Positions 3,793 to 18,557 of a stretch of DNA of 64,000 nt are shown one piece after another (position 1 is the first letter of the stretch; each line of letters opens with the position of its first letter). The position numbers were made by a program, and so were the translations under genes. The notes beneath the pieces are model-generated. The model worked only from the letters and a program-made list of their open reading frames with translations. It was not told the origin of the DNA and did no database searches. Origin of the DNA: Vampirovibrio chlorellavorus (lineage in GTDB: Bacteria; Cyanobacteriota; Vampirovibrionia; Vampirovibrionales; Vampirovibrionaceae); the NCBI RefSeq assembly GCF_003149375.1, contig NZ_QFWH01000003.1, positions 248,001 through 312,000 on the forward strand, given 5' to 3'.

Positions 3793-3994
3793 GCGAGAAC
3801 GTCCTTTCCCTGATTGCCTGAGGCTTTGCCTTTATTGTGGTCGATCGGGGCGGGAATCTCCTCCTGTGGGTGGAGGAGTTGTGGGACGGCAGCTTTTGGG
3901 GAGGAGGGGAGGGGCGGTGATTTTCTGGAGGCGTGTGGGTTTTTGGGCTGGTTTTTTTAATGTAACAAAATAATGGGTGAGGATATCAAAAGCC
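3793..3994. other. Intergenic stretch between divergent DUF115 gene and aro leader
   Basis: About 200 bases, G-rich on the plus strand in the left half and T-rich further right. It should hold the minus-strand DUF115 promoter, but I see no convincing -35/-10 pair. The plus-strand aro promoter begins at its right end. Confidence 0.5.
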
Positions 3995-4025
3995 TTGACA
4001 AACTGACCCCATATTAAGCTAAACT
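3995..4025 (+). promoter_or_regulatory. Predicted sigma-70 promoter of the aro attenuator/operon
   Basis: A perfect TTGACA (-35) at 3995-4000 is followed after 19 bases by TAAACT (4020-4025), a four-of-six match to the -10 box. The spacer is slightly long. A start site about seven bases downstream would fall near 4032, only a few bases before the leader-peptide ATG at 4035, so the leader mRNA may be almost leaderless. The -10 assignment is the weaker half of the call. Confidence 0.55.
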
Positions 4026-4034
4026 GTACTCACT

Positions 4035-4109
4035 ATGAAAAACACACGTTGGCAAAATAGCTTTTATTTCTTTTATTTTTACGGCTTCCCCGTGGGAGTC
4101 GTTTGTTGA
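4035..4109 (+). CDS. Phe/Tyr-rich leader peptide of the aro operon attenuator (24 aa)
   Basis: A 24-codon open frame starts ATG at 4035 and stops TGA at 4107-4109. It begins MKNTRWQNS and then reads FYFFYFYGF, so eight of nine consecutive codons specify Phe or Tyr. It ends PVGVVC. This is the composition expected of an attenuation leader that senses charged tRNA-Phe and tRNA-Tyr, comparable in style to PheL of enteric bacteria. It lies between the TTGACA promoter and an intrinsic terminator ahead of the DAHP synthase gene. No clear Shine-Dalgarno precedes the ATG, and translation may be leaderless. Stalling at codons 4062-4088 would leave the downstream antiterminator arm (4094-4109) largely free. 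A ribosome reaching the stop codon would mask it. Confidence 0.85.
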   Translation: MKNTRWQNSFYFFYFYGFPVGVVC

Positions 4110-4153
4110 CGTGTAACCGCAAAAGCAAGTTTACCGATTGACAAACAGCTCCC
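4094..4153 (+). promoter_or_regulatory. Antiterminator hairpin of the aro attenuator
   Basis: The arm GGGAGTCGTTTGT (4094-4106) pairs with ACAAACAGCTCCC (4141-4153): 12 of 13 positions pair, counting one G-U, with a single C-A mismatch. A few more pairs extend inward (4107-4109 with 4138-4140). The right arm contains CAGCTCCC, the left half of the following terminator, so the two structures exclude each other. The left arm overlaps the 3' end and stop codon of the leader peptide, which couples the switch to translation. Confidence 0.8.
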
Positions 4154-4178
4154 GAACTTTCGGGGGCTGTTTTTGTTT
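4146..4178 (+). terminator. Intrinsic terminator (attenuator) upstream of aroF
   Basis: CAGCTCCCGA (4146-4155) pairs with TCGGGGGCTG (4160-4169) as a ten-base-pair stem with one G-U and a four-base loop. TTTTTGTTT follows directly. The terminator lies inside the 5' region of the operon, about 45 bases before the aroF ATG, and overlaps the antiterminator, so it is read as conditional rather than as a simple end of transcription. Confidence 0.88.
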
Positions 4179-4223
4179 ACAGGCATCACCAGGCAATTAT
4201 CAGTTAAAGGAGCAATCATCACC

Positions 4224-5051
4224 ATGAGTCTGACTCACCATCACCAACCGGCCCGTAATATTCTGGTTGCTGGCCCCTGCGCCGCCGAAACCCGGGAGCA
4301 AATCATGTTCTCTCTGGAGCGGGCCCAGCAGCACGGTGTGAATTACGTTCGGGTGAGCCTGTGGAAGCCCCGCACCAAGCCCGGCTTCGATGGCCTGAAG
4401 GAAGAAGGTATTGAATTACTGGCCGAAGCCGCCCAAATGGGCTTGAATCCCGGCACAGAAATTCTGGTGCCCTCCCAGGCCCAGGCGGTCATGGACGGGG
4501 TGTTGCCTTCTCTGAAGGACAATGGGGAACTGCTACTGTGGATTGGGGCCCGCAACCAGAACCACTACGTGCAACAGGAAATCGCCCGGGTGGCCGCTCA
4601 GGATAGCCGGGTCAAGCTGATGCTGAAGAACCAGCCCTGGCACTCGGAATCTCACTGGGAAGGCATCGTGGATCATGCCCTGGAAGGCGGCATGAAGCTG
4701 GAAAACCTCATTCTGTGTCACCGTGGCTTCACCCCGGACGTGCATCATCCCAACCCCAGTGGCCTGCGCAACGTGGCCGATTCTGAAATGGCCATGCGCA
4801 TTCGGGAAAAAACCGGGCTACCTATGTTGCTGGATATCTCTCACGTGGCGGGCGCTGTGGACAAGCTGGAAGAAGTGGCCATGGACACCGTGGAATACGA
4901 CTACGACGGGATGGTCATTGAAGTGCATCCCACCCCCCGCTTTGCCTGGACGGATGCCAGCCAGCAAATCACCTGGGAAGAGTTAACCGCCCTGATGGGC
5001 AAGCTGGATGCCGCCCGTGCCGCCTTGCGGAAGGAAGCCCTGCCCGCATGA
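4224..5051 (+). CDS. aroF: 3-deoxy-7-phosphoheptulonate (DAHP) synthase, type I-beta
   Basis: DAHP synthase condenses phosphoenolpyruvate and erythrose 4-phosphate, the first step of the shikimate pathway. The 275-residue protein shows the KDO8PS/DAHPS barrel motifs: ILVAGPCAAET near the N-terminus, VRVSLWKPRTKPGFDGL (substrate-binding KPR), GTEILVPSQ, WIGARN, LMLKNQP, LILCHRGF and DISHVAGAVD, plus EVHPTP near the end. It is short and has neither an N-terminal ferredoxin-like regulatory domain nor a fused chorismate mutase. Feedback control inside the enzyme is therefore not evident, and the upstream attenuator may carry that role. ATG at 4224 is chosen because AAAGGAG lies 11 bases upstream; longer frames would begin inside the terminator. 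Its stop overlaps the next start (ATGA). Confidence 0.92.
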   Translation: MSLTHHHQPARNILVAGPCAAETREQIMFSLERAQQHGVNYVRVSLWKPRTKPGFDGLKEEGIELLAEAAQMGLNPGTEILVPSQAQAVMDGVLPSLKDNGELLLWIGARNQNHYVQQEIARVAAQDSRVKLMLKNQPWHSESHWEGIVDHALEGGMKLENLILCHRGFTPDVHHPNPSGLRNVADSEMAMRIREKTGLPMLLDISHVAGAVDKLEEVAMDTVEYDYDGMVIEVHPTPRFAWTDASQQITWEELTALMGKLDAARAALRKEALPA

Positions 5052-6958
5052 CTGCCTCAGCCACCCATCGAGCCCTGCGATTGAGCCCCTTGCCCCTGCC
5101 GGTTCAAACGTCGGTGACTGTGCCGGGCTCCAAGAGCTACACCATTCGGGCCCTCATTCTGGCTGCCTTGGTGGATCGGCCCGAGGGTCAGCCGGTGCGG
5201 GTGTGGAATGTCCTGCGCAGCGATGACGGGCAGGCCATTCTGGATTGCCTGAACACGCTGGGCATTCGCACTGAGTGGGGGGCGCAGGACGGACAGTCGT
5301 ATGTGGATGTGTTTGGGCAGGTTCGGCACATCGCCGATGCCGATTACACCCTGCATGCCAATTTATCGGCGGCCACCCTGCGCTTTTTGCTGGCTGTATC
5401 GGCGGTCATCCCCGGACGGCAAACCTTGTTGGGGCACGAGGGCCTGAATCGTCGCCCGGTTCGGGATTTGGTGGATGCCTTGCGGGCCTTGGGGGTGTCC
5501 ATCGACTATCTGGATCAGGAAGGCTATCCGCCGGTGCGGGTCAATTCCAGCCGACTGCAAGCCAGTGAGTTGACGGTCTCTGGCAGTACCAGCAGTCAAT
5601 ATATTTCAGCCCTGCTGATGATTGCCCCCTTTATTGAGCCTGCGTTGGAAGCCAGTGGCCGGTCGGTGGTCATTCGCTTGCCGGAAGCCCCGGTGTCCAA
5701 GCCTTATCTGGATATGACCCTGGCTATCATGCGGGCCTTTGGGGTCGAGGCCACCCATGCCGCGGACTATCAAATGTTTACGGTACCCGCCGGGCAAGCC
5801 TACACCGCTTTGTCTTACGCGGTGGAGCCCGATGCTTCCAGTGCCGCTTACTTTGCGGCCATTGCCACCCTGACCGGGTCAACCATCACCCTGAACAACC
5901 TGCCCATGACTTCGGTACAGGCCGATATGCGCTTTCTCCAGATTCTGGAGCGTATGGGCACAGGCATTCAGGCGGTAGATGGGGATTTGGTTATTGAAGG
6001 CCACGGGGTGAAGCCCTTGTCCTTGGTAAATATGTGCGATTGCCCCGATCAGGCCCAGGCGCTGGCGGTACTGGTCGCTTTCGCCGAGGGCGTCACCCGC
6101 ATTGAAGGGCTGCAATCCCTGCGGGTGAAGGAAACCGACCGCATTGCCGCCGTGGAAACGGAATTGAAAAAAATGGGCATTCGGGTGGAAGCTGAGGCCG
6201 ACGCCCTGGTCATTCACGGGGGGCAACCGCAGGCCGCTCGCATCGCCACGTATGGGGATCATCGTATGGGTATGGCCTTTGCCGTGGCCGGGGCCGTGCT
6301 GGCGGGTCTGGAGATTGAAGACCCTGCGGTGGTTAATAAAACCTACCCCGGCTTTTGGCAGGATTTAAGCGCCTTGGGTCTGGGCGTCTCCGAATCAGTG
6401 TTACCCGGTTGCTCGGAAACGTTGGATGATGCGGTTAGTCCCCAAAAGATCGTGCTGATTGGCTTTATGGGCGCTGGTAAAAGTTCGGTGGCCCGCAGTT
6501 TAGCCCAGCGTTGTAAGCGCCAAGCGGTGGATATGGATGCCTTGATTGTGCGGCAGTCCGGTCGGCAAAGTGTCACCGAAATTTTTGATACGGACGGGGA
6601 AGCGCATTTTCGGGCCTTGGAAGCGCAAGTGGCTCAGGGCTTGGCCTCGACGCCTGAGCTGATTATAGCCACTGGCGGCGGCGTGCCTGCCAATCGGGAG
6701 GCCATGTCCACACTGACCGCTGAGGCTGTGGTGGTTTGGTTGCGGGTTTCGTGGGACACTGTGTGGGCCCGCCTGCAACATGATGCGGATCGTCCCCTGT
6801 TGCGGAATTTGGAGCAGGCTCGGGCTTTGTTTCATCAACGCCAGTCGGTGTACCAGCAAACCGCTCATCTTCAGGTGGATACGGACGGCAAAACCCCGTC
6901 AGCGGTGGCCGATGAAATCGCCTGTCGCCTCAATCTCCGTCAATACAGTCCGGTGTAG
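5048..6958 (+). CDS. Bifunctional EPSP synthase / shikimate kinase fusion (AroA-AroK)
   Basis: Residues 1-450 are EPSP synthase: PGSKSYTIRALILAAL at about 27, LSAATLRFLLA near 105, SGSTSSQYISALLM, LRVKETDRI near 360, and GDHRMGMAFAVAG near 400. From about residue 466, KIVLIGFMGAGKSSVAR supplies a Walker A motif of shikimate kinase. It is followed by DMDALI, LEAQVAQ, ATGGGVP and RPLLRN, the usual shikimate-binding and lid residues. The fused protein thus covers shikimate to EPSP. In the pathway the kinase step precedes the EPSP synthase step, the reverse of the domain order. Its ATG overlaps the aroF stop by four bases. Both halves keep the expected catalytic motifs, so both are probably active. 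Confidence 0.95.
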   Translation: MTASATHRALRLSPLPLPVQTSVTVPGSKSYTIRALILAALVDRPEGQPVRVWNVLRSDDGQAILDCLNTLGIRTEWGAQDGQSYVDVFGQVRHIADADYTLHANLSAATLRFLLAVSAVIPGRQTLLGHEGLNRRPVRDLVDALRALGVSIDYLDQEGYPPVRVNSSRLQASELTVSGSTSSQYISALLMIAPFIEPALEASGRSVVIRLPEAPVSKPYLDMTLAIMRAFGVEATHAADYQMFTVPAGQAYTALSYAVEPDASSAAYFAAIATLTGSTITLNNLPMTSVQADMRFLQILERMGTGIQAVDGDLVIEGHGVKPLSLVNMCDCPDQAQALAVLVAFAEGVTRIEGLQSLRVKETDRIAAVETELKKMGIRVEAEADALVIHGGQPQAARIATYGDHRMGMAFAVAGAVLAGLEIEDPAVVNKTYPGFWQDLSALGLGVSESVLPGCSETLDDAVSPQKIVLIGFMGAGKSSVARSLAQRCKRQAVDMDALIVRQSGRQSVTEIFDTDGEAHFRALEAQVAQGLASTPELIIATGGGVPANREAMSTLTAEAVVVWLRVSWDTVWARLQHDADRPLLRNLEQARALFHQRQSVYQQTAHLQVDTDGKTPSAVADEIACRLNLRQYSPV

Positions 6959-6970
6959 AAAGTTCAAGTT

Positions 6971-8059
6971 ATGACCGCAGGAAGTTCTTTGGGCCAGTTG
7001 TTTCGTATTAGCACCTTCGGGGAGTCCCACGGGGGCGGGGTCGGTGTGGTCATTGACGGCTGCCCGCCCGGTTTACCCATCACCCTGGAGGAAATCCAGA
7101 AAGAGCTGGATCGCCGTCGGCCGGGGCAAAGCAGCATTACCACTCCCCGCAACGAGCAGGATCAGATTCACCTGTTCTCAGGCATTCTGGACGGAGTGAC
7201 CACCGGCACGCCCATCATGCTGATGGCTTTCAATAAAGATCAGAAGTCCGATGACTATAACAACCTGAAAGCAGTGTTCCGGCCCGGTCATGCCGATTAT
7301 ACCTTTCAACAAAAATACGGCACCCGGGACTGGCGTGGTGGAGGGCGTTCCTCGGCTCGGGAGACCATTGGTCGGGTGGCCGCCGGGGCCATTGCCAAGA
7401 AATTCCTGAAGCAAACCCTGGGGCTGGAATGCCTGTGCTACGTGGAACAAGTCGGCCCCATCCGCACGGAGATGGACCCTGAGGCGGTGACGGCGGAGCT
7501 GGTGGACTCCACCATCGTGCGCTGCCCGGATGCGGACAAAGCGAAGGAGATGATTGCTCTGATTGAATCCGTGCGGGATGAGGGTGACTCCGTGGGAGGC
7601 ATTCTCAAAGGGCTGATTCGCCATGTGCCGGTGGGCCTGGGCGAGCCGGTTTTTGATAAATTACACGCCGATTTGGGTAAGGCCATGCTCAGCATTAACG
7701 CGGTGAAAGGCTTTGAAATCGGCTCCGGCTTTGCCGGGGTGACCCTGCGAGGCAGTCAGCACAACGATGAATTTTACACCGATGACAGCGGCCGGGTGCG
7801 CACTCGCACCAATCGGGCCGGTGGGGTGTTGGGTGGTCTTTCCAACGGGGAAACCATTCACTTTCGGGTGGCGGTCAAGCCCACTTCCACCATTCGCAAG
7901 GCCCAACGCACTGTGGATCAGGCCCATCAGGAAATCACCCTGGAGGCCACCGGACGGCACGATCCTTGTGTGCTACCCCGGGCGGTGCCCATTGTGGAAT
8001 CCATGGCCGCCTTGGTCATGATGGATCACTATCTGCGGCACAAGGCCCAGAACGGTTAA
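6971..8059 (+). CDS. aroC: Chorismate synthase
   Basis: Chorismate synthase converts EPSP to chorismate with reduced FMN. The 362-residue protein opens with [27 protein letters not shown], the family's first signature. It has [22 protein letters not shown] (second signature) and [20 protein letters not shown] near the C-terminus (third signature). Length is normal for the family. It starts 12 bases after the AroA-AroK stop. The site upstream of the ATG is weak, so translational coupling is likely. No partner flavin reductase is seen nearby. Confidence 0.96.
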
Positions 8060-8096: not shown

Positions 8097-8420
8097 ATGA
8101 TGACCATGACAGACGAGCAAAACACCGAAACCCAAAATACGGAAGCCCACTGTTCTGAGCTGCAAGCCTTGCGGGATCAAATCGATCGGCTGGATGAGCA
8201 GCTCTTGCAAGCCCTGGCTCAGCGGGCCCAGCTGGTGGATGAAGTGGGCCGCTACAAAAAGGCCCGAGGGCTGGAGCCGTTGGATATGAAGCGCTGGCAA
8301 CAGGTGCTGCAAGCCAAGAAAGCCCGAGCCCAGCAGTTGGGGCTTTGCCCGGAATTTGTGGACGCCCTGTACCATTTGATTCATGATTACAGTCTGCATT
8401 TAGAAAGCAAAAGCGAATAG
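8097..8420 (+). CDS. Chorismate mutase, AroQ type
   Basis: A 107-residue helical protein contains LQALRDQIDRLDEQLLQALAQRAQLVDEVGRYKKARG, the first long helix of AroQ chorismate mutases with the conserved Arg and Lys residues, followed by a second helix ending in YHLIHDY. It would convert chorismate to prephenate, feeding the next gene. A stand-alone mutase is unusual beside a separate prephenate dehydratase, since the two are often fused as PheA. A GGAGG (8077-8081) lies 15 bases before the first ATG, which is long. ATG at 8097, 8100 and 8106 are all possible. Confidence 0.88.
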   Translation: MMTMTDEQNTETQNTEAHCSELQALRDQIDRLDEQLLQALAQRAQLVDEVGRYKKARGLEPLDMKRWQQVLQAKKARAQQLGLCPEFVDALYHLIHDYSLHLESKSE

Positions 8421-8423
8421 GCG

Positions 8424-9092
8424 ATGATGGACCTGCAAAATTCTACGCAAGATTCACAGCAAGATACGAATCACACCCCGCGCTCTGATATCTTGGCCGC
8501 TTTGGCCCAAAAGCCGGTCATTTTCGGCATTCAGGGCGGAGAGGGCAGCTTTAACGAGGAGGCCATTCAGGCCTATCTCAGTCACCAGTTTACCCCCACC
8601 GAGGCCATTGAATACCTCTTTACTTCCGATCGGGTCATGGAAGCGGTGGTCAGCGGGAAAATCGATCGGGGGCAGTGCGCCATCTACAATTCCGTGGGGG
8701 GCTATGTGGAAGAGACCACCGAGGCCCTGGAAAAATATCCGGTGGAGATTATTCAGGAATTTGAAATTAAAATTGCCCATGCCCTTATGATTCGACCGGA
8801 TCAGGATTTTGCCAAAATCGACACGGTGATGTGCCATCCGCAGGTTTTGGCCCAGTGTCAGGGCAATTTGCAAAAAAAGTACCCACACCTCAAGCAAACT
8901 TCCGGCGAGGGAGAATGGGTGGATAACGCCAAAACCGCCGAAGCGCTGGCCACCCGTCGCTTGCCGGACAACACCGCTGTCATGGGTAGCAAAGTGTTGG
9001 CCAAAATTTACGGCCTGAAAGTGATTGAAGACAACTTGCAGGATGCCGAAGAGAACTACACCCGCTTTATTCACGTGGTGGCCAGGGCTTAG
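8424..9092 (+). CDS. pheA: Prephenate dehydratase, catalytic domain only (no ACT domain)
   Basis: Prephenate dehydratase decarboxylates and dehydrates prephenate to phenylpyruvate, committing flux to Phe. The 222-residue protein has FGIQGGEGSFNEEAIQAYL, HALMIRP, CHPQVLAQCQGNL, TAEAL, and DNLQDAEENYTRFIHV, which includes the catalytic Thr in the TRF motif. It stops directly after the catalytic domain, so the C-terminal ACT domain that gives Phe feedback inhibition in most homologues is absent. The usual PIENS motif reads AIYNS at about residue 86, a notable change. The gene follows the mutase by three bases and closes the operon. Regulation by attenuation rather than by an ACT domain is a consistent inference. 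A specificity other than prephenate cannot be excluded. Confidence 0.82.
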   Translation: MMDLQNSTQDSQQDTNHTPRSDILAALAQKPVIFGIQGGEGSFNEEAIQAYLSHQFTPTEAIEYLFTSDRVMEAVVSGKIDRGQCAIYNSVGGYVEETTEALEKYPVEIIQEFEIKIAHALMIRPDQDFAKIDTVMCHPQVLAQCQGNLQKKYPHLKQTSGEGEWVDNAKTAEALATRRLPDNTAVMGSKVLAKIYGLKVIEDNLQDAEENYTRFIHVVARA

Positions 9093-17982: not shown

Positions 17983-18154
17983 TTAATAACCCCTTGAATA
18001 GAACTTGAATAAAATGGAAGGCACGCAAACAGATCCGGCCAGTGGACGCTGATAAACAGCAGCGGGCATATGCCAAAAGATGCTACTCACCACTATGTCG
18101 TTACTCACTTTAAGCGTGGATGGCTTTGGCTGCCAGCTATAAAGATGAAACATT

Positions 18155-18250
18155 CTACTTCCCTCCGCTGGCATTACCCAGATCAGGTTAAGCGGGTTTC
18201 ATCGAATTAGCGATGATCTCAGTCGGCCCGAAAGCCAACACCCCGATAGA
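18155..18250 (-). promoter_or_regulatory. TPP riboswitch (THI element)
   Basis: Read on the minus strand, the segment runs GGGGTG, then GGCCGACTGAGATCATCG, ATGAAACCC, ACCTGATCTGGGTAATGCC, and AGCGGAGGGAAG. These are the conserved P1/P3 sequence and the two ligand-binding blocks (CUGAGA and ACCUGAUCUGG...UAAUGCCAGCG) of the thiamin pyrophosphate riboswitch. It lies about 200 bases before thiC. I see no obvious intrinsic terminator between it and the thiC start, so the expression platform may act on translation initiation or in another way. Confidence 0.95.
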
Positions 18251-18557
18251 TGATATGAATTGTCGGTTCGCAAATTTAACTTGCGATTAAGGTCATCATA
18301 CGAGAACTTGCATGACTTGGCAAATGGTATCCTGCGATTGAGCTGCTGGCCTGCCGTTCCCTAACGGTCGGTAAGCCTGGTAGCCGTTTTGAGAAAATTT
18401 TACAGGCGACTGTAGGTGATTGCTTCATAGCGGCATCGGTTGCTGATTCGACGATGGCCGCTTGCTTTACTCCGCTTTACCCGAGGGCCGGGGCTGGCAT
18501 ACAATGAGAGTCAGCTTAATGCACATTATCAACCGAATTTGATTGGATTTCCTCCAC
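18251..18557. other. Intergenic region between divergent thiC leader and proB
   Basis: About 300 bases with promoters for both directions. A structured stretch at about 18348-18385 contains CCGTTCCCTAACGG nested between GGCC and GCC. A plausible plus-strand promoter for proB is TTTACC (18476-18481), an 18-base spacer and TACAAT (18500-18505). No protein-coding frame is evident. Confidence 0.45.

Follow-up and report, generated by a model that had tools for sequence, protein, structure and literature searches.

A predicted Phe/Tyr attenuator before the aroF operon of Vampirovibrio, and aromatic leaders at DAHP synthases without a feedback domain in Cyanobacteriota

A five-gene aromatic operon of Vampirovibrio chlorellavorus is very probably governed by a ribosome-mediated transcription attenuator of the classical type, sensing the charging of Phe and Tyr tRNAs, as judged from the sequence of a 64,000-nucleotide stretch of its genome (the window). 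A small leader ORF with a run of Phe and Tyr codons overlaps a set of alternative RNA helices, and both stand directly before the operon (Table 1). The sequence features of a trp/phe-type attenuator are present: a run of codons for the end products, a terminator, an antiterminator that excludes it, a protector, and conservation. The leader stop lies inside the 5' arm of the antiterminator, where a ribosome at the stop can reach it. The classical ribosome-mediated attenuation proposed in a preliminary description of this locus is thus supported, as a prediction, by the leader, the alternative helices and their conservation in the genus. In the wider phylum, it is rather likely that DAHP synthase is placed either under an N-terminal feedback domain or under aromatic attenuators, and not under both. 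In this scheme, the attenuators would occur in at least three unrelated domain-less lineages, isozymes would owe their specialisation to Phe/Tyr or Trp leaders, and a tandem unit of two attenuators would have moved with aroF between non-photosynthetic and photosynthetic lineages. The organism of the window is a predatory relative of the cyanobacteria, of the Melainabacteria group.

Table 1. Coordinates of the putative attenuator and of the operon behind it (window positions).
Feature	Position	Strand	Remarks
-35-like TTGACA	3995-4000	+	from sequence; invariant among the four genus members
-10-like TAAACT	4020-4025	+	19-nt spacer from -35; 9 nt 5' of the leader ATG
Leader peptide ORF MKNTRWQNSFYFFYFYGFPVGVVC	4035-4109	+	24 codons plus TGA, without a Shine-Dalgarno sequence
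Segment 1 (outer protector arm)	4044-4055	+	pairs with 4103-4114, 12 bp
Regulatory codons FYFFYFYGF	4062-4088	+	from sequence; aromatic identity also in G001 (YFSFFYYW)
Inner protector arm	4081-4089	+	pairs with 4094-4102, 9 bp
Segment 2 (antiterminator 5' arm)	4094-4111	+	contains the leader stop TGA, 4107-4109
Segment 3 (antiterminator 3' arm)	4136-4153	+	overlaps the terminator 5' arm
Intrinsic terminator	4143-4172	+	4143-4155/4160-4172, 13 bp, loop of 4, then TTGTTTA
aroF, type I-beta DAHP synthase	4224-5051	+	profile match; core domain only, divergent
aroA-aroK fusion (EPSP synthase plus shikimate kinase)	5048-6958	+	
aroC, chorismate synthase	6971-8059	+	
Chorismate mutase type II	8097-8420	+	
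Prephenate dehydratase	8424-9092	+	no ACT match

The leader run comprises eight Phe/Tyr codons in nine, which was matched by none of 3000 dinucleotide shuffles of positions 3801-4223. The other small ORFs of the 64-kb window all have fewer than six Phe/Tyr in nine codons, and a search of the organism's own genome with the Phe/Tyr-run pattern gave no second leader of this kind. The 24-codon leader with eight aromatic codons in nine of the preliminary description was recovered as claimed. The attenuation model does not account for a Trp codon at 4050-4052, nor for the Gly within the aromatic run.

Of the promoter proposed earlier, the TTGACA stands and is kept in the genus, but the best -10 element lies behind a spacer of 19 nt, which counts against the model, and the TTGACA/TAAACT pair is not listed by a strict promoter scan because this spacer is long. 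TTGACA, a TAnnnT element and the 9-nt gap to the ATG are conserved in each of the four Vampirovibrio genomes whose locus is readable, and a Shine-Dalgarno sequence upstream of the leader is absent from all four. Since this spacing is kept and no Shine-Dalgarno sequence is present, the leader transcript is probably almost leaderless, with a start a few bases 5' of the ATG. The near-leaderless start claimed before thus agrees with the spacing and the lack of a Shine-Dalgarno sequence, the start site itself being a prediction. According to PMC4046766, which cites Morbach 2000, the ilvBNC leader peptide of C. glutamicum is made without a ribosome binding site.

The RNA from 4020 to 4185 folds with z = -4.0, and none of 200 shuffles is equally stable. 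The core of the antiterminator (4094-4106/4141-4153) pairs at 12 of 13 positions, including one G-U, with the single mismatch described earlier; over the full length of segments 2 and 3, it extends to 15 of 18 pairs. The antiterminator beats shuffled sequences (p = 0/200) and takes in the whole 13-base 5' arm of the terminator. The terminator had been described as an overlapping, T-tailed ten-bp hairpin ahead of aroF; its place, overlap and tail are confirmed, but its length is 13 bp. The 1:2 protector hairpin, made of the outer and inner arms, is a feature that had gone unnamed.

When the stretch of a stalled ribosome is masked (4030-4092), the antiterminator is the fold of RNA up to 4156, at -24.7 kcal/mol. 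When that of a ribosome at the stop is masked (4094-4121), the antiterminator is impossible and full-length RNA forms the terminator. Two equilibrium results count against the model. Firstly, in full-length RNA the terminator is favoured even under the stalled-ribosome mask, and the switch must therefore be kinetic, like the textbook cases. Secondly, ribosome-free RNA up to 4156 favours the antiterminator, so that termination on untranslated RNA depends on the 1:2 hairpin forming first. As modelled here, attenuation would thus need the usual kinetic order of folding.

The leader, the overlapping helices, their conservation and the gene content are seen in the sequence; the promoter, leader translation, ribosome stalling, termination and a response to amino acids are inferred from them. 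Transcription would begin a few bases 5' of the leader ATG. When tRNA-Phe and tRNA-Tyr are charged, the ribosome would reach the TGA and cover segment 2, segment 3 would pair with segment 4, and RNA polymerase would stop near 4173-4179. A lack of charging of either tRNA would make the ribosome stall within the regulatory codons and block segment 1; segment 2 would then be available to segment 3, forming the antiterminator, with read-through into the five genes. If there is no translation, the 1:2 hairpin could form, favouring termination.

The operon contains aroF, aroA-aroK, aroC, chorismate mutase and prephenate dehydratase, all as listed in the preliminary description, and the same five genes follow the leader in all four Vampirovibrio genomes. 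They cover the route from the first shikimate step through chorismate to phenylpyruvate, which fits the Phe/Tyr codons of the leader. Their spacing ranges from overlap to 37 nt, and no terminator-like site is found on the + strand at the gene junctions. The sole terminator-like match on that strand, at 8502-8517, is inside the dehydratase gene, and the counts of such matches are at chance level. The absence of an ACT domain from the dehydratase and of a regulatory domain from the DAHP synthase, both claimed earlier, is upheld by the profile searches.

Conservation within the genus was followed in the window genome, G004, G003 and G001; no match to aroF was obtained from a fifth Vampirovibrio genome, the 76% complete G002. 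In G004, aroF is 95% identical to that of the window and the leader peptide is identical. The leader peptide is MNTRPQQSFYFFYFYGFRQGDVC in G003 and MNTRTQQYFSFFYYWLPRESFVDV in G001, the most divergent of the four. Indels in G001 shift the frame, which results in a different peptide tail, a moved stop and other codons in the run. The run is still aromatic, and GGGAGTCGTTTGTTGACGTGTAA in segment 2 is unaltered despite the frame shift. This matches what would be expected if the ribosome reads aromatic identity and RNA pairing reads segment 2. Across the four genomes, 15, 15, 11 and 14 of the 18 antiterminator pairs and 13, 13, 12 and 11 of the 13 terminator pairs can form, and three of 12 pairs of the outer protector are lost in G001. 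The helices are mostly invariant in the genus, and the resulting covariation is thin, which counts against the model. Loss of the aromatic run or of the alternative hairpins in close relatives had been named beforehand as evidence against attenuation; both are kept in four of four genomes.

The frame shift also bears on the possibility of a peptide that acts in trans or as a membrane micropeptide. The leader peptide is hydrophobic, and a trans role is reported for the attenuator peptide peTrpL (PMC7298713). However, the tail of the G001 peptide is wholly different whereas RNA segment 2 is unchanged, and other leaders in the class share the aromatic run only, making a peptide function scarcely credible. 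Alternatively, the small ORF may serve translational coupling or reinitiation, and the hairpin may merely be where the RNA is processed, or a partial terminator of fixed strength that sets basal expression. Small ORFs upstream of genes are nothing unusual, and reinitiation has been suggested as a role of leader ORFs, although at short distances (PMC4833913); here the leader stop is 114 nt from the start of aroF, which has an AAAGGAG of its own. A fixed terminator would also leave the aromatic run, the antiterminator and the retention of run identity with different codons unexplained. Coupling or reinitiation is thus very unlikely, and attenuation is the preferred reading of the leader and hairpins.

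The aroF gene of the window is itself unusual, with 131 bits against an I-beta cut-off of 335 and about 30% identity to the ordinary aroF of other genera. The ordinary aroF of the sister genera is absent from all five Vampirovibrio genomes searched, including the 76% complete G002. As the Vampirovibrio aroF is divergent and the ordinary one is missing from the genus, either another gene took the earlier one's place behind the attenuator, or an incoming aroF brought its own attenuator along. No close relative was found in the search for the origin of the divergent gene; distant loci with a relative of aroA-aroK are without such an aroF, and a PDB search returned general I-beta enzymes only. One locus from a MAG labelled Parcubacteria (L003, 4001-8453) carries a relative of the aroA-aroK fusion and an aroC 67% identical to that of the window, and may reflect misbinning or transfer.

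A Trp leader, MLSTETQPTQLQQWWWSQPLTGLSGWIDYP, followed by a T-tailed hairpin, is found before trpE in the same genome as the window (L167 669-761, G000:C1). WWW leaders precede trpE in all four Vampirovibrio genomes (relatives L186-L188), in peptides that are otherwise different. The leader before trpE thus indicates that the organism uses the attenuation mechanism elsewhere too. In the same genome, no leader was found before the single tyrA or before the second chorismate-binding gene.

From the class as a whole, 95 distinct DAHP synthase loci were divided with an N-terminal domain profile into 57 without and 38 with the domain. The domain aligns with residues 1-70 of the DAHP synthase of Thermotoga maritima (1rzm), an enzyme under feedback control through its N-terminal domain. 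With a fixed rule (six or more F/Y/W within 10 residues in a small ORF upstream), a leader was found at 41/57 domain-less and 1/38 domain-bearing loci (Fisher p ~1e-12, a descriptive value, as related sequences are not independent). Inspection by eye gave leaders at 51 of the 57 domain-less loci, two of them Trp leaders (L066, L113), and at none of the 38 domain-bearing ones. The leaderless domain-less loci are L069, L071, L078 (directly behind trpA), L086, L091 and L105. The domain-bearing locus that matched the rule, L075, was rejected as an aromatic leader, its ORF being non-ATG and without a terminator, and is regarded as a chance match.

The same division is seen within single genomes. 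In the six genomes for which both kinds of copy were fetched (G007, G010, G014, G084, G094 and G132), leaders occur at the domain-less copies only; G007 has one domain-less copy without a leader. G010 has three DAHP synthases: one with a Trp leader and trpE behind it (L183), one with a Phe/Tyr leader and tyrA behind it (L184), and one with the feedback domain (L074). Leaders at domain-less and none at domain-bearing DAHP synthases bear out the earlier suggestion that missing enzyme feedback domains go with transcriptional control. Among 80 aromatic leaders from the other families of this class, a terminator follows in 71; 62 of these have an antiterminator at p <= 0.05 against shuffles, and in 70 there is overlap with the terminator arm. 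The counts are approximate, as a few leaders are overlapping alternative frames. In the tree of the enzymes, leader-bearing domain-less types appear in three separate places: the main clade, a small clade of f8, and the Vampirovibrio genus with its very long branch.

In family f4 and in the photosynthetic families, domain-less aroF often has two successive leaders, each with a terminator. The first leader ends in EVHLG or VVHRG and the second in RGSPG or RSSSG. All 18 domain-less copies found in photosynthetic genomes (L137-L154) have at least one leader, mostly in tandem, with the motifs ...YFYFWFRxVHRG and then ...WFYGFYFWPRxSSG, each usually with terminator and antiterminator. None of the 12 domain-bearing loci from the search that gave these copies has a leader, four of these 12 belonging to family f6 of the class. 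Over 35 first units, pairing between the antiterminator arms amounts to 92.7%, compared with at most 50% when slid by 1-3 bases, the informative positions being the outer six since the search motif fixed part of each arm. Two-sided changes are seen in these arms, for example A-T to G-C and C-G to T-A. The photosynthetic copies nest among the f4 copies, which, as a reading of the tree, suggests transfer of the gene together with the tandem unit. In plasmids of named cyanobacteria, a search for the tandem unit found only 40 matching bases, in one Nostoc plasmid.

The Rfam model Phe_leader (RF01859) aligns along its full length (positions 1-125 of 125) with each of the four Vampirovibrio loci, at 26.8-34.1 bits (30.5 for the window); the gathering cut-off of 55 is not reached by any of them, and the loci are therefore not formal members of the family. 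This search also bears on a different sensor. A T-box, a small-molecule riboswitch or an RNA-binding antiterminator protein could drive the terminator, with the ORF incidental, as an intrinsic terminator and a competing helix are common to all such classes, and GGTGGACCGCAGA in the first-unit attenuators of relatives looks like T-box sequence. However, nothing matches a T-box or riboswitch at gathering score at the attenuator locus or in 13 related loci, and a permissive search of the attenuator stretch gives Phe_leader as the best match. The part conserved outside the helices is an open-frame aromatic run with its stop inside segment 2. A T-box, riboswitch or protein sensor is thus extremely unlikely, and a ribosome on the leader remains the favoured sensor. 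The T-box-like GGTGGACCGCAGA lies ahead of the first terminator in the first leader-terminator units of L019, L038 and L090, and the T-box model has no match at gathering score in the loci tested. At the same score, Rfam has no family for the tandem units (13 related loci).

The mechanism is known. The leader of enterobacterial pheA likewise encodes a Phe-rich peptide and has four-segment alternative pairing and a T-tailed terminator. It precedes pheA alone, whereas that of the window would control aroF to prephenate dehydratase, has a mixed Phe/Tyr run and probably a near-leaderless start, and is from another phylum. Attenuators were reportedly predicted also in Thermotogales and Bacteroidetes/Chlorobi by Vitreschak in 2004. 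An aromatic leader (Phe-Tyr-Phe) before a DAHP synthase gene is described for aroF of C. glutamicum, in Actinobacteria, although with just three aromatic codons and no tandem units (PMC4046766). The predicted attenuators of the Merino database include some before aroA-I-beta and tyrA/pheA clusters, with examples before aromatic supraoperons of Bacteroides thetaiotaomicron and Thermus thermophilus (PMC1173090, Table 7). These are defined by terminator and antiterminator only; in the extracts of that paper, the sensing element is not identified and cyanobacteria are not mentioned. A 2010 survey, which itself added a case in Bacilli, knew of leader-peptide systems until then from Proteobacteria and Actinobacteria only (PMC2965389), and a 2016 survey found "no reliable data" on an attenuation mechanism in cyanobacteria (PMC4833913). 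Phylum-wide use, the tandem units and the mutual exclusion of domain and attenuator appear to be undescribed in the open-access literature searched.

This wider setting in the phylum is of more interest than the element of the window itself. The split between feedback domain and attenuator offers a clear example from nature of how one type of control takes the place of another at the same enzyme step. Leaders accompanied by covarying antiterminators in the tandem first units make attenuation directly testable in the phylum, photosynthetic genera included. A further RNA element in the window is a TPP riboswitch at 18142-18255 on the - strand (76 bits).
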